From Mixta gaviniae (lineage in GTDB: Bacteria; Pseudomonadota; Gammaproteobacteria; Enterobacterales; Enterobacteriaceae): a DNA stretch of 64,000 nt. Where the stretch lies: the NCBI RefSeq assembly GCF_002953195.1, contig NZ_CP026377.1, forward strand, positions 3,162,001 to 3,226,000, written 5' to 3'. The position numbers were made by a program, and so were the translations under genes. The notes under the pieces are model-generated. The model had not been told where the DNA came from. It did no database searches and saw only the letters and a list, made by a program, of their open reading frames with translations. Numbering within the stretch: the stretch's first letter is position 1; each line of letters starts with the position of its first letter. Of this stretch, positions 28,859-58,540 are shown in pieces.

Positions 28859-28933
28859 GTCCCCTTAGTTAAATGGATATAACGAGCCCCTCCTAAGGGC
28901 TAGTTGTAGGTTCGATTCCTGCAGGGGACGCCA
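28859..28933 (+). tRNA. argW: tRNA-Arg (anticodon CCT), prophage attachment site
   Basis: A 75-base tRNA with encoded CCA, acceptor GTCCCC/GGGGAC and anticodon loop CTCCTAA. It differs from E. coli argW at only a few positions. argW is the attachment site of prophage KpLE1 (CPS-53) in E. coli K-12, and here too an IntS-type integrase lies directly 3'. The 3' end of the tRNA should form the left half of attL; the right copy lies beyond the window. Confidence 0.96.
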
Positions 28934-42893: not shown

Positions 42894-43637
42894 TTACGGA
42901 GCGGTCACGGTAACCGCGCAAGTGCCGGTAAAATTGCCGTCATTGGATTTGAAGGTAATCGTTGCACTTCCGGCTTCCACGCCGGTTACCAGACCGGTAG
43001 AGTTCACCGTTGCTTTGGTCGCATCAGAAGTTGTCCATGTGCCTGACTTATCCGTCGCGTCAGAAGGATTAACCGAGCCTGTTAACTGTCGTGTTGCACC
43101 GACAGCAAGTGAGGTAGTCGCCGGAGTCACCGTTACACCGGTAGCGGGAACATTGGCATCAGTATCGAACACCTGGAAAGTGCTGGCATCGGCTACTTTA
43201 AACTCCGTTGAAAAAGTTACGATGTCATTGCTTCCACCGTCTGAGCTCAGTGCATTAATGAGCATATAGCCCTGCAGGGTTACCGCGCCGAATTCCATGC
43301 GAACCCAGAGTGTTGGCTGGCGCGCCGCCTGAATTTCGGTATTGAAGTACTTAATGAGGCGATATACTCCATACTGGTCGAGTTTATCGTTTTGGCGCAC
43401 TTCACCTTCAAACGAGATCGTCAGGTCAGCGTTCGTTACAATGCTCTCAACATAACCTTTCGTATCATCTGCGTCAGAGGTGACAGAATTTGGTGACATA
43501 TCGAACGATTTTGTAGTCCCGGCAGCGAGCGCCTTCCATTCAGACTCTTGGGGGACGACGTCCGGGCAGCCGTCCGCGACTTCGAGCACAATGGCTCGTC
43601 CGAAAAGTTTTGTGTTATCAGTTGGGCAGATAGCCAT
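42894..43637 (-). CDS. Major tail tube protein with C-terminal Ig-like (Big2) domain
   Basis: 247 residues. The first about 165 form the tube domain (MAICPTDNTKLFGRAIVLEV). Residues about 170-247 are a bacterial Ig-like domain (TGVTVTPATTSLAVGATRQL and VEAGSATITFKSNDG), as at the C-terminus of lambda gpV. ATG 43637 is preferred to the in-frame start at 43664. Confidence 0.9.
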   Translation of the reverse strand: MAICPTDNTKLFGRAIVLEVADGCPDVVPQESEWKALAAGTTKSFDMSPNSVTSDADDTKGYVESIVTNADLTISFEGEVRQNDKLDQYGVYRLIKYFNTEIQAARQPTLWVRMEFGAVTLQGYMLINALSSDGGSNDIVTFSTEFKVADASTFQVFDTDANVPATGVTVTPATTSLAVGATRQLTGSVNPSDATDKSGTWTTSDATKATVNSTGLVTGVEAGSATITFKSNDGNFTGTCAVTVTAP

Positions 43638-43663
43638 AACTGTTATTCCTCTTTCTTTAGGCA

Positions 43664-43688
43664 ATAAAAAACCCGCACTAGGCGGGTT
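43664..43688 (-). terminator. Intrinsic terminator after HNH gene A
   Basis: AACCCGC-CTAGT-GCGGGTT then six T on the minus strand, 18 bases after the HNH stop and before the major tail gene. Confidence 0.78.
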
Positions 43689-43705
43689 CGTTTGTTAAAC
43701 CATCG

Positions 43706-44638
43706 CTATCTGCCATGGTTTTCATGATATTCATACTCTATTTCGGCTTTCTTTCTGGCCTGCACGGCGTCTTCAAAAGTGTCAAAATTACCAAGAGATT
43801 TTCTTTTGTTTTTATGGCTATTTATGTACGCCCTGAACTTCCCTGTATCCTTTCTCTGAACAACACCTACATGACCACTAGTGTTGCTAGAGTAAGTGAT
43901 CATATTCCTCATATTCTGAACGCGATCAGTAACCCTGAGGTTGCTAAATCTGTTGTCTGTCCTACATCCGTTGACATGGTCAATCATCCCGTCTGGATAA
44001 AAACCAGTCATGATTGCATAACAAATTCGATGAGCTGGGTATTGCTTACCATTTAACATCACTTTCAGGTAGCCATATTTGCTTACAGAGCCAGCTAATT
44101 TACCAAAAAATTGCCTGTGATAGTTCTCAAACCCCGCACCGCCCTTGAAATGGCTTCTTGGCCTTTTTTTCCATGTTAGCGCGCCCGTATCAGGATTGTA
44201 GTGCAAGCATTCTTTTAGATATTTGACGTCTAAGTGATCCAATGGAGAAAAACTATCTTTCTCCATTGCAGGATTTTCAATGTGACTTTCTGACAATGAT
44301 TGCGGAACGTACTCAGAAAGGTTAATGACTCTATTATCACGCTTATCGCCATTTAAGTGATAAACCTTTGAGGTCGGCAACCTTCCATGAAAAATAGTGA
44401 AAATTATGTCATGTAAATAATACCAGTCGCACCCTATCTTGACTGATATTGAGGTGTCTGGCCTTTCGAATCCGGCGATCTTATTCGCGAATCGGTTATT
44501 TACGCTTACCTGTGCCGCCTTAGTTTTAAAGTGACTGAGCGGCCTGCATTTCCAGAGAAGAGTTCCATTTTCTGGATCGCAGTCAAAGCATTCTTTTAAA
44601 AACTCAGGCGTGATTCCTTTTGCAGCTAAATTTCTCAT
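43706..44638 (-). CDS. HNH homing endonuclease with duplicated domain (HNH A)
   Basis: A 310-residue protein made of two similar units. The C-terminal unit has a standard HNH core (HRICYAIMTGFYPDGMIDHV then NGCRTDNRFSNLR) followed by an AP2-like DNA-binding part (TGKFRAYINSHKNKRKSLG, ending ENHGR). The N-terminal unit (FLKECFDCDPENGTLLWKCR, VYHLNGDKRDNRVINL) repeats it, but the acidic residue before the central His is missing and the segment is divergent. ATG 44638 has ACGAGGTT upstream; an in-frame ATG lies at 44665. It is inserted between tail terminator and major tail genes, with a structured leader and its own terminator. Confidence 0.85.
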   Translation of the reverse strand: MRNLAAKGITPEFLKECFDCDPENGTLLWKCRPLSHFKTKAAQVSVNNRFANKIAGFERPDTSISVKIGCDWYYLHDIIFTIFHGRLPTSKVYHLNGDKRDNRVINLSEYVPQSLSESHIENPAMEKDSFSPLDHLDVKYLKECLHYNPDTGALTWKKRPRSHFKGGAGFENYHRQFFGKLAGSVSKYGYLKVMLNGKQYPAHRICYAIMTGFYPDGMIDHVNGCRTDNRFSNLRVTDRVQNMRNMITYSSNTSGHVGVVQRKDTGKFRAYINSHKNKRKSLGNFDTFEDAVQARKKAEIEYEYHENHGR

Positions 44639-44674
44639 TACAACCTCGTCAAAGTTGCTCGTCATTTGATGGGT

Positions 44675-44734
44675 GTGGCAACCCGGCGACGAAACCGGGC
44701 TTTCGGGGATCAGCCTAGCCACTTCTTTATTATA
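44675..44734 (-). promoter_or_regulatory. Conserved structured leader of HNH gene A
   Basis: Right after the tail-terminator stop comes TATAAT (44729-44734), then stem P1 GTGGC (44718-44722)/GCCAC (44675-44679), a 17-base linker TAGGCTGATCCCCGAAA, and stem P2 CCCGG/CCGGG (44695-44699, 44682-44686). The same architecture, with changed but still paired stem bases, precedes HNH B (45744-45803). TATAAT may be a -10 box, but no good -35 is present. Confidence 0.6.
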
Positions 44735-44739
44735 CTCTT

Positions 44740-45123
44740 TTATTCCCCATACAAAACAGCGAACTGCAGGCGCCAGACGAGGCGGCCTTCTGTTGTGAGC
44801 ACCGGCGAAGGGATTCCGCCAATATTCTCGATGTGCCCGATGCAATCGTTAGGCATTGGGTATTTCTGGACGTAATCGATAATGTCGCTAACCGCTTCTT
44901 CAGTGACGCGGAAGTTATCAACCGGGCTGATTACATCGACCATGACGTAATATTCAGAGCTAAGGTCATTACGAATTGCAGAGCCGCCATTGGGGCGGAA
45001 CACGATGAACCGGTCAGCTTTATTTCCCGTGTCGCGCCAGACCAGCATTTGCACCACCGAGTTATCGCAAAGGCCAGCGACACCGAATAACTCACGCACG
45101 CGGACATGCATTTGAGGAGTCAT
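44740..45123 (-). CDS. Tail terminator-like (gpU-type) protein
   Basis: A 127-residue protein (MTPQMHVRVRELFGVAGLCD, VVQMLVWRDTGNKADRF) in the place of the tail terminator, between the HK97 gp10-like gene and the major tail gene. The fold is inferred from position, size and the EGRLVWRLQFAVLYGE end. It is separated from both neighbours by HNH cassettes. Confidence 0.7.
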   Translation of the reverse strand: MTPQMHVRVRELFGVAGLCDNSVVQMLVWRDTGNKADRFIVFRPNGGSAIRNDLSSEYYVMVDVISPVDNFRVTEEAVSDIIDYVQKYPMPNDCIGHIENIGGIPSPVLTTEGRLVWRLQFAVLYGE

Positions 45124-45133
45124 AAAAACACCA

Positions 45134-45158
45134 TTAAAAAAGGCCGCCTAAGCGACCT
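45134..45158 (-). terminator. Intrinsic terminator after HNH gene B
   Basis: AGGTCGC-TTAG-GCGGCCT (one G-T pair) then six T on the minus strand, directly after the HNH B stop. Confidence 0.75.
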
Positions 45159-45163
45159 TGATT

Positions 45164-45706
45164 TCACCTTCCATGATTTTCATGGAAGCCGTATTTCCGG
45201 CTTGCTATAAGTCTGGCCTTCTTTGCCTCTTCAATTGAGTCAAACCGACCAAGTTTTATTTGCTTACCATCAACCTGAATTCTAGCCTGTATCCTGCCGC
45301 CATCATTGGGAATGCAAACTCCAATGACACCAGTTGAGTTATGAGATGGAATTTTTACATTCTTCCCATTTTCTGCATGACTGACCGATCGAAGATTCCC
45401 TATTCTGTTATCAGCAGGCGAGCCATTTATATGGTCAATCTCTTGAGGCCAAGAACCGTTCATGTATAGCCATGCCAGCCGGTGGGCGTAGTAACACTGC
45501 TTGTGAATACGAATTAACACGTAACCACTCTTCATAAGAGCGCCAGCTTGTTTGCCGGAATACTTGGTATTCCATATTTTTTGAGCGCGCGCGTCTTTGA
45601 AATGCTCAATCGGCCTAACATTCCAAGTGAACACCCCTGCATATGGATTATAGGATACGCATTCACGAAGATAATCAGCGTTAATTTCTAATTTTGTAGT
45701 TTTCAT
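45164..45706 (-). CDS. HNH homing endonuclease (HNH B)
   Basis: A 180-residue single-unit HNH protein: N-terminal YLRECVSYNPYAGVFTWNVR, HNH core HRLAWLYMNGSWPQEIDHIN then NRIGNLRSVSH, and an AP2-like C-terminal part ending FHENHGR, almost the same end as HNH A. The ribosome site is ACGAGGTT. It sits between the gp10-like and tail terminator genes with its own leader and terminator. As a free-standing homing endonuclease it would copy itself into phages lacking it. Confidence 0.88.
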   Translation of the reverse strand: MKTTKLEINADYLRECVSYNPYAGVFTWNVRPIEHFKDARAQKIWNTKYSGKQAGALMKSGYVLIRIHKQCYYAHRLAWLYMNGSWPQEIDHINGSPADNRIGNLRSVSHAENGKNVKIPSHNSTGVIGVCIPNDGGRIQARIQVDGKQIKLGRFDSIEEAKKARLIASRKYGFHENHGR

Positions 45707-45743
45707 ATAAACCTCGTAGTTGGCTTATCGTAGATGGTAGGTT

Positions 45744-45803
45744 GTGCCAGAGCGGTCTACGTTCCGCCTTTTCGGGAGCTACCCTAGGCACTGCTTAATT
45801 ATA
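45744..45803 (-). promoter_or_regulatory. Conserved structured leader of HNH gene B
   Basis: After the gp10-like stop: TATAAT (45798-45803), P1 GTGCC (45787-45791)/GGCAC (45744-45748), linker TAGGGTAGCTCCCGAAA, P2 GCGG/CCGC (45764-45767, 45752-45755) extended by a G-U pair. The linker has the same length as in leader A and shares TAGG-N-T and CCCGAAA. Within the linker GGG/CCC can also pair, giving a three-way junction. Confidence 0.6.
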
Positions 45804-45809
45804 CCTAAA

Positions 45810-46178
45810 TTACAACGACATTTCTTTCTTAATCACCCTGTCGATTACGTCTTTTGAGTCCTCAAATCCCTTGGTTAAAAATTCCTTTTGAGCTGTAGCT
45901 CTCCTGAAATTCTGTGGGATATTTGGATCATGAACATATGCCGCATAAGATGCCGTGTAACCCACGCGGCCTGTAAGTCTCGCTCCATTCGCTGATAATT
46001 CTCGATACTGAGAGTTTAGTAGCGTTGACGTATCTATCGGGGTAAAAAGAGCAGCCTGAGACGAGCCGATAATCATCGCGCTCTGCAGCGCTCGCACCGC
46101 CTTACGTCCCTGAATATCATTGATAAGTGCATCCAGATTTTGCTGAGCCTGACGGACACCTTTAATCTTCACGCCCAT
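45810..46178 (-). CDS. HK97 gp10-like head-tail connector protein
   Basis: A 122-residue protein typical of the HK97-gp10 family of neck/tail-completion proteins (GVRQAQQNLDALINDIQGRK, TPIDTSTLLNSQY, GYTASYAAYVHD). It starts MGVKIKG. It is followed by HNH cassette B. Confidence 0.82.
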   Translation of the reverse strand: MGVKIKGVRQAQQNLDALINDIQGRKAVRALQSAMIIGSSQAALFTPIDTSTLLNSQYRELSANGARLTGRVGYTASYAAYVHDPNIPQNFRRATAQKEFLTKGFEDSKDVIDRVIKKEMSL

Positions 46179-46180
46179 GG

Positions 46181-46528
46181 CTACGCTCCGGTAATTATTG
46201 CCCAGTCATCAGTTACACGATCAAGGGTGTCACCCCAGCGAGTAACGTGCGCCACTTCATCCGCACCCGCAGCAATCGGATCGGCCTCGGTAGAGTTGCC
46301 TATCAATACGTAATCACCTTTATCAGCACCCGGAAACTCAGTAAAAAAGGTGTTTTTAACAACAATCTCTTTCCCTATGGAGCCAACCTTTTCGCTTAGG
46401 CCGCCAATGTAATCACACATGATAGTTATTGGCGCATCGAAACCAAGCGAGTCACCATACTCATCTATGCCGCGATTTTTCCAGAGCGTGCATGGCGCAG
46501 TGTTGGCCCATGCTGCTGTAGATGACAT
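46181..46528 (-). CDS. Head-tail joining protein (putative)
   Basis: 115 residues (MSSTAAWANTAPCTLWKNRG, CDYIGGLSEKVGSIGKEIVV) in the connector block. The start is ATG 46528; the frame extends to 46594, but the upstream part overlaps the next small gene and is not family-like. The role is inferred from position only. Confidence 0.65.
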   Translation of the reverse strand: MSSTAAWANTAPCTLWKNRGIDEYGDSLGFDAPITIMCDYIGGLSEKVGSIGKEIVVKNTFFTEFPGADKGDYVLIGNSTEADPIAAGADEVAHVTRWGDTLDRVTDDWAIITGA

Positions 46529-58463: not shown

Positions 58464-58540
58464 TGGTGCTATCGGACGGAATTGAACCTTCAATCGACCG
58501 ATTATGAGTCGGGTGCTTTAACCAATTAAGCTACGATAGC
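58464..58540 (-). tRNA. Phage-encoded tRNA with CAT anticodon (Met or Ile2)
   Basis: 77 bases with encoded CCA fold as a full cloverleaf: acceptor GCTATCG/CGATAGC, D stem GCTT/AAGC, anticodon loop CTCATAA, T loop TTCAATT. The anticodon stem carries C29-G41 and A73, as in tRNA-Ile2 (lysidine-modified CAU), unlike E. coli elongator tRNA-Met. Its acceptor does not match either host tRNA well, so identity stays open. It lies between two terminators at the head of the late operon. Confidence 0.9.

Follow-up and report, generated by a model that had tools for sequence, protein, structure and literature searches.

The stretch of Mixta gaviniae DNA analyzed here (the window, 64,000 nucleotides) carries two HNH endonuclease genes, A and B, on the minus strand, and each of them is preceded by a structured leader. 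Leader A (44675-44734) and leader B (45744-45803), both on the minus strand, were found at the positions given by the first-pass annotation. The letters described there as shared were present in both, i.e., a TATAAT and a 17-base linker with common ends, which reads TAGGCTGATCCCCGAAA in leader A and TAGGGTAGCTCCCGAAA in leader B. The two helices were also recovered. P1 is GTGGC/GCCAC in A (44718-44722/44675-44679) and GTGCC/GGCAC in B (45787-45791/45744-45748), and P2 (44682-44699 in A, 45751-45768 in B) is CCCGG/CCGGG and GGCGG/CCGCT, respectively. Between A and B one pair in P1 and two pairs in P2 are changed on both sides with pairing kept, in one case as G-U. A third helix, P3, is located at 44705-44715 in A and at 45774-45784 in B, and the 3' end of both leaders is ACGAGGTT.

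Downstream of each leader come ACGAGG at the spacing of a ribosome site, an HNH_3 gene ending in ENHGR and a terminator-like stem; the first pass had already noted a ribosome site, an HNH gene and a terminator. Assigned from open reading frames and Pfam, gene A (43706..44638, minus strand) encodes 310 amino acids starting with MRNLAAKG, and gene B (45164..45706, minus strand) encodes an HNH_3 protein of 180 amino acids. In protein A, Pfam detected two HNH_3 stretches, which look like a duplicated HNH unit, and an AP2 match under its cut-off. The terminator scan placed an intrinsic-terminator-like stem followed by a T-run at 43669..43689 for A and at 45140..45159 for B, both on the minus strand. 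Five terminator-like sites were found in 2.7 kb compared to 3.1 (SD 2.2) in shuffled sequences, a count that by itself is unremarkable. Elsewhere in the window, genes for tRNA-Arg (CCT) and tRNA-Met are located at 28859-28933 and 58464-58540, respectively.

The TATAAT strings are present in both A (44729..44734) and B (45798..45803), but a two-hexamer sigma-70 promoter was found at neither leader. A promoter scan of positions 43500-46200 gave a single promoter-like site, away from leaders A and B, compared to a mean of 4.9 in shuffled sequences. We refer to the TATAAT as a -10-like box with a putative promoter role. In 49 of the 198 related elements described below, a TATAAT-like box was found at a distance of 17-22 nt upstream of the U in CUAG, and an own promoter therefore belongs to only part of the family elements.

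Insertion Sites of the Two Cassettes

The proposal that leader and gene form a mobile cassette with a structured RNA was supported by relatives that share the neighboring genes and lack the whole of cassette A (loci L034 and L035) or of cassette B (L114-L116). Comparison to these relatives also located the insertion borders, with site A after the stop of the tail-terminator gene and site B at an ATGA overlap. In L034 and L035, where B is present and A is absent, the next ribosome site follows a few bases after the tail-terminator stop, and the window carries 1.1 kb extra at site A compared to these loci. In L114-L116, where A is present and B is absent, the two genes overlap as ATGA; cassette B of the window (45123-45812) occupies that overlap and brings a new TAA stop. 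This pattern of presence and absence between conserved neighbors supports the view that A and B are mobile HNH cassettes of the homing type. Judged by eye, the tail-terminator gene downstream of cassette B was left with a weak ribosome site. Also by eye, a terminator-like stem was seen at site A of a further locus (L037:2470-2540) with the HNH gene absent, which may be a scar or a terminator of older origin.

Relation to the int-alpA Family

The first-pass annotation knew of no named family for the leaders. Leader B does have one: its core (45743..45792, minus strand) matches Rfam RF02996 (int-alpA) with 36.0 bits compared to a gathering cut-off of 35.8. The core of leader A (44674..44723, minus strand) scored 25.6 bits, below the cut-off (E 0.011 in 1.5 kb). 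Leader B is an int-alpA member by Rfam's rule, and leader A is a near relative and no formal member, since our model R1 scores it at 40.2 bits and its P3 sequence recurs in L012, a locus itself matched by RF02996 at 66.5 bits. The P3 version of B is present in the RF02996-matched loci L016 and L025.

Model R1 holds 42 other elements, none of which came from loci fetched with the HNH proteins of the window. The core patterns used to collect them had been taken from A and B; the score is thus independent for P1 and P2 but not for the core. In the 64-kb window R1 matched only A (E 1.9e-9) and B (45.8 bits, E 4.3e-11) at E<=10, and in the whole 4.5-Mb genome again only A and B at E<=1. The likeness of A and B is therefore not due to chance. 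Of the 274 genomes searched in the class, 37 have an RF02996 match (E<=0.1), as do 51 of the 398 searched in the phylum (E<=1e-4). For R1 the numbers are 12 of 149 in the family (E<=0.001) and 23 of 398 in the phylum (E<=1e-4). A random draw of 20 elements from the core-pattern collection (loci <=9 kb) contained 15 that reach the RF02996 cut-off.

The name int-alpA implies a position between an integrase gene and alpA. No such position is seen in the window, where A and B flank the tail-terminator gene (PF23842, Pfam); among 30 RF02996-matched loci, read by eye, many lie directly after an apparent integrase gene. Rfam lists RF02996 under the type 'Gene; sRNA', and its consensus has conserved CUAG and GAAA joints and a U-rich stretch after P1. 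The family is said to stem from work by Weinberg et al. in 2017. One paper names int-alpA among the small RNAs predicted for two genomes, without pursuing it further. In the accessible literature, to which the int-alpA source paper does not belong, we saw no account of a leader with the decoy and Shine-Dalgarno (SD) pairings described below; the loop-tail pairing may already be drawn in that source paper.

Collection of Family Elements

A total of 84 loci were fetched by HNH protein similarity. Many further loci came from exact core patterns, three of which were scanned in viral contigs and a fourth in genome contigs; the resulting counts are lower bounds. At least 336 distinct elements were parsed by a structural descriptor requiring C-U-A-G, G-A-A, six of six pairs in P1 and a fully paired P2, followed by a core-type filter. 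Among the matches listed, 324 of the 336 elements had a start codon at a median of 34.5 nt after P1, chosen partly by SD likeness and never by the match to the loop. Removal of look-alikes and the requirement of a start 24-60 nt after P1 left a test set of 198 elements. A later set of 67 loci gave 28 tested elements, as 30 loci were not parsed by the strict descriptor, eight duplicated other loci or belonged to the first set and one had no fitting start. A MAFFT alignment of 60 elements (A3) misaligned P2 and was left out of all counts. On multi-copy genomes a relaxed pattern returned one element in 18 stretches, and the copies were then read by coordinates.

Of 80 named loci, 66 were parsed; their genome contigs include Proteobacteria, Nitrospinota and Planctomycetota, with single cases elsewhere. 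Some of these single cases may be chance matches, since a 17-letter pattern yields such matches in so large a collection. Clusters of elements within one genome were seen in L644 (G436:C33) and L646 (G519:C2), with three elements within 2.5 kb and two within 0.8 kb. In L410 a group I intron (1205-1415) is located on the opposite strand, about 0.3 kb from an int-alpA element. The annotated start of CDS AUR95728.1 of Vibrio phage 1.211.A (L574:2490-3107) is upstream of the RNA element, and the CDS runs through it; the true start is likely after the element, at about 2583.

Support for the Helices

Exact-core matches taken regardless of their flanks provide a test that is free of selection for P1 and P2. 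Both helices were found to form in 143 of 219, 80 of 95 and 76 of 92 distinct matches, among the matches listed, compared to 7-13% with the 5' flanks permuted and 1-2% with the 3' flanks shuffled. In alignment A4, which contains 42 elements of the same geometry that were pre-selected as paired, 93.9% of the cells pair compared to 63.0% in shuffled alignments, and 178 cells are changed on both sides compared to 48. The covariation score was 0.776 compared to 0.164 in shuffles and at most 0.170 in slid controls. All three values exceed those of all 500 shuffles, although the conserved joints and the 93.9% pairing were partly selected for, since the descriptor demanded them. Two cruder A4 measures did not stand out from the shuffles: the number of pairs in which both sides vary (10 compared to 9.6, reached by 335 of 500 shuffles) and further pair types (36 compared to 33.0, reached by 76 of 500).

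Genes Downstream of the Elements

The first-pass annotation regarded the RNA as an element of HNH genes. The RNA is, however, not tied to HNH genes. The 294 downstream proteins, among the matches listed, fell into 183 groups; only complete proteins of at least 60 amino acids were used, and the threshold for similarity between groups was E 1e-5, required over half of the length. Small genes lacking any Pfam match were found behind leaders that share 74-81% identity with A (four of these genes were scanned: L326, L197, L564, and L172). Conversely, 70 of the 84 HNH-homologue loci were searched with R1, and 12 of the 70 had a match at E<0.01, several of them near-identical. An HNH-specific RNA was rejected on these grounds. 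A leader of this kind without an HNH gene, one of the refuting cases set by the first-pass annotation, is thus seen elsewhere, although at both sites studied here the leader and its gene are missing as a unit.

Of 274 representative downstream proteins, 269 were compared to Pfam, in sets of 146 and 123, and the 146 also to PHROGs. The commonest families were nucleases, i.e., HNH_3 (16 of 146 and 4 of 123) and Endonuclease_7 (7 and 1), and PHROGs likewise returned mostly HNH and endonuclease VII families. Next were antirepressor-type families (pRha, Bro-N, KilA-N, AntA, P22_AR_N), DUF1376, DUF6387 and others. Tad3 (anti-Thoeris), TIR_2 and an IS605-type OrfB were each matched by a single gene behind an element, and the leader may also head defense and counter-defense genes.

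One Loop with Two Possible Partners

The predicted pairing of the P2 loop with a string after P1, which we term the decoy, and the second copy of this string at the SD are absent from the first-pass annotation and are added here. In A, UCGUC of the P2 loop (UUUCGUCG, 44687..44694) is complementary to GACGA just after P1, in the decoy UGACGA (44659..44664, read from the sequence), and to GACGA at the SD. The second copy, GACGAGG (44644-44650), is located inside the SD-containing hairpin P4 (CAAC-UUUGACGAG-GUUG, 44641..44658), which was drawn by eye and is paired differently when A alone is folded by free energy. In B, CGUAG(A) of the P2 loop (AACGUAGA, 45756..45763) is complementary to (U)CUACG after P1, the decoy UCUACG (45729..45734) seen in the sequence and the family-wide pairing test, and to CUACG at the SD. 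Here the second copy, CUACG(AGG) (45712-45719), is inside a P4 (AAGCC-AACUACGA-GGUUU, 45709..45726) that contains the SD and is backed by the family hairpin test. All of these features are on the minus strand. The loop, our proposed switch strand, can form five Watson-Crick pairs with its own tail in A and six in B; the loop of A can form four with the tail of B and the loop of B three with the tail of A, an appreciable cross-pairing that counts against the proposed switch.

A pairing run was defined as at least five Watson-Crick pairs, with G-U permitted within the run. Such runs were found between loop and decoy in 152 of the 198 elements (permuted 11.8%, z 33) and between loop and SD window in 124 (permuted 17.7%, z 19). 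Both runs were present in 103 elements; 46 had no decoy run and 74 no SD run. Control pairings (loop with upstream sequence, loop with codons 1-4, P1 strand with SD) gave z 1.5-2.4. In the later set of 28, loop/decoy runs were found in 19, loop/SD runs in 21 and both in 14, and the observed means were reached in 0 of 1000 permutations. The elements are related, also in the later set, where several share one loop, and the z-scores overstate their independence. Reading 20 further elements from other genomes by eye, we found the pattern in most, and two G436 copies had no obvious decoy. In loci with two elements a loop fitted its own tail with 5.3 pairs (n = 13) compared to 4.3 for the tail of the other element (n = 16), in a sample that includes doubtful parses.

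The two pairings largely use the same bases, as 91% of the loop bases were common to both in the 156 elements with both runs >=4. The start of the decoy helix is at a median distance of 9.5 nt from P1 on its 3' side, and a median of 8 nt separates the end of the SD helix from the start codon. A hairpin score >=12 was found for the SD region in 143 of 198 elements (72%), compared to 27% in shuffled sequences and 29% inside the gene, and in 103 of these 143 the hairpin loop spans position -9. Calculated for isolated duplexes, without pseudoknot or kissing geometry, the mean energies were -7.55 kcal/mol for the decoy and -7.67 kcal/mol for the SD, compared to -3.84 and -5.29 kcal/mol for permuted loops. 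The gap between the two was at most 2 kcal/mol in 116 of 198 elements, with 41 favoring the decoy and 41 the SD by more than that. The values for decoy and SD were -7.6 and -8.0 kcal/mol in A and -7.2 and -6.1 kcal/mol in B.

These data can also be read as a static structured leader, in which the loop-decoy pseudoknot is the sole functional fold, serving ribosome standby or the stability of the mRNA. The likeness of SD and decoy would then come from both being purine-rich ribosome-binding sequence. The stronger loop/decoy signal (z 33 compared to 19) and the nearly fixed decoy position are in agreement with this. However, the SD match is specific to each element, as the fit declines when loops are permuted. 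This holds for the later set, too, and for the 65 elements with a weak canonical SD, where the loop fit to the own SD was 4.75 compared to 3.52 (SD 0.11). Since the weak-SD elements still fit their own SD, the match does not reflect generic SD likeness. The mean energies of the two duplexes are moreover balanced, and we regard a static leader as unlikely.

A trans-acting small RNA or a transcription attenuator would fit the Rfam label and the U-rich stretch that the consensus of RF02996 has after P1. T-runs of at least five within 12 nt after P1 were, however, found in only 25 of 198 elements and in neither A nor B, and a terminator or attenuator was rejected on this ground; the start codon that follows P1 in 324 of 336 elements and an SD that covaries with the loop likewise speak against such RNAs, for which we see a small chance. 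Smaller still is the chance of a self-cleaving ribozyme akin to type II hammerheads that trims the 5' end of a mobile-gene mRNA. In the accessible part of PMC3088659 these have a like layout (an open stem and two hairpins, with a hairpin loop paired to the 3' tail) and occur in a like setting, i.e., in prophages close to integrases and beside varied genes, but the CUGANGA box was found in 1 of 198 elements and is absent from A and B, and Rfam gave no hammerhead family at E<=5 in 44500-46000 and none at the cut-off in 20 loci, so that a hammerhead identity was rejected. Equally improbable is an element acting as DNA, in which the cassette is moved via a site for recombination or homing and folding is only incidental: cassettes A and B are missing as units in relatives and similar leaders precede different genes, but changes to G-U and A-U keep the helices paired and loop and SD covary at ribosome spacing, both of which argue for RNA.

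A Proposed Translational Switch

Altogether, the comparison establishes a predicted three-way domain (P1, P3, P2) whose loop is complementary to both decoy and SD, with the SD in the P4 loop in most elements. We consider it probable that A and B act as cis-acting translational switches of the int-alpA family, each carried with its gene and terminator as an expression cassette. With the loop on the decoy the SD would be free and translation ON, and with the loop on the SD the ribosome would be blocked and translation OFF. A two-state switch is the simplest reading, since the loop has room for only one of the strands at a time and each of the two matches is element-specific. The three-way domain with its CUAG and GAAA joints would be the likely sensor. 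As both duplexes are similar in energy, translation would be set by whatever stabilizes or melts this domain, be it a ligand, a protein or a ribosome finishing the upstream gene before P1.

The stop of a long upstream frame is within reach in 168 of 198 elements (in 11 the flank was too short and 19 had none) and 1-30 nt before P1 in 93 of these 168, which makes upstream translation a candidate signal. Compact phage genomes would likewise place stops close before P1, and we do not rely on this observation. The tail-terminator gene and the cassettes are taken to lie in a late operon, and in this prophage the switch would restrain two homing-type nucleases adjoining the tail-terminator gene.

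More tentatively, and with the balance in our judgment somewhat against it, int-alpA as a whole may be a gene-independent two-state switch of mobile elements. Its anti-SD loop would toggle between the decoy and the SD of the carried gene, loop, decoy and SD would evolve as a three-part code, and the three-way junction would sense one signal common to many bacterial groups, e.g., a metabolite, a ribosomal protein or upstream translation. An RNA family filed as sRNA would thereby gain a mechanism and a possible role in the translational control of swappable phage and satellite genes (nucleases, antirepressors and others). If true, phages own a standard plug-in control part with a loop/decoy/SD code adapted to each gene, the presence of a homing nuclease in a late operon without mistimed production could be explained, and the leader would be usable as an expression switch.

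Comparison to Known Systems

The core helices and conserved letters of leaders A and B are those of RF02996. The int-alpA family was known already; added here are the decoy/SD alternative and the gene-independent use. Whereas the family is filed as sRNA, the elements studied here precede many unrelated genes and have the decoy/SD alternative and a hairpin at the SD.

In the preQ1-II and SAM-II riboswitches, a pseudoknot sets access to the SD. SD access via a pseudoknot is common to these and to the proposed switch, but in int-alpA a ligand is only a candidate trigger and the decoy copy is extra. A riboswitch changes SD access with a ligand; what the comparison shows is two alternative pairings, and we do not call leaders A and B riboswitches.

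The type II hammerheads of prophages, as far as described in the accessible part of PMC3088659, have the same pseudoknot between a loop and the 3' tail, the prophage setting and varied neighboring genes, but the hammerhead core is absent from int-alpA elements.

For homing endonucleases of the T4 type (I-TevI, mobE, segB), the available part of PMC3014915 reports a leader structure that hides the SD and limits translation. A nuclease gene held back by its leader, as we propose for A and B, is thus a common trait, and this reported hiding of the SD makes control of the nuclease a plausible purpose for A and B. In the T4-type leaders, as presented in that part, helices sequester the SD or the start codon, whereas here a predicted anti-SD loop could choose between decoy and SD in a module common to unrelated genes.
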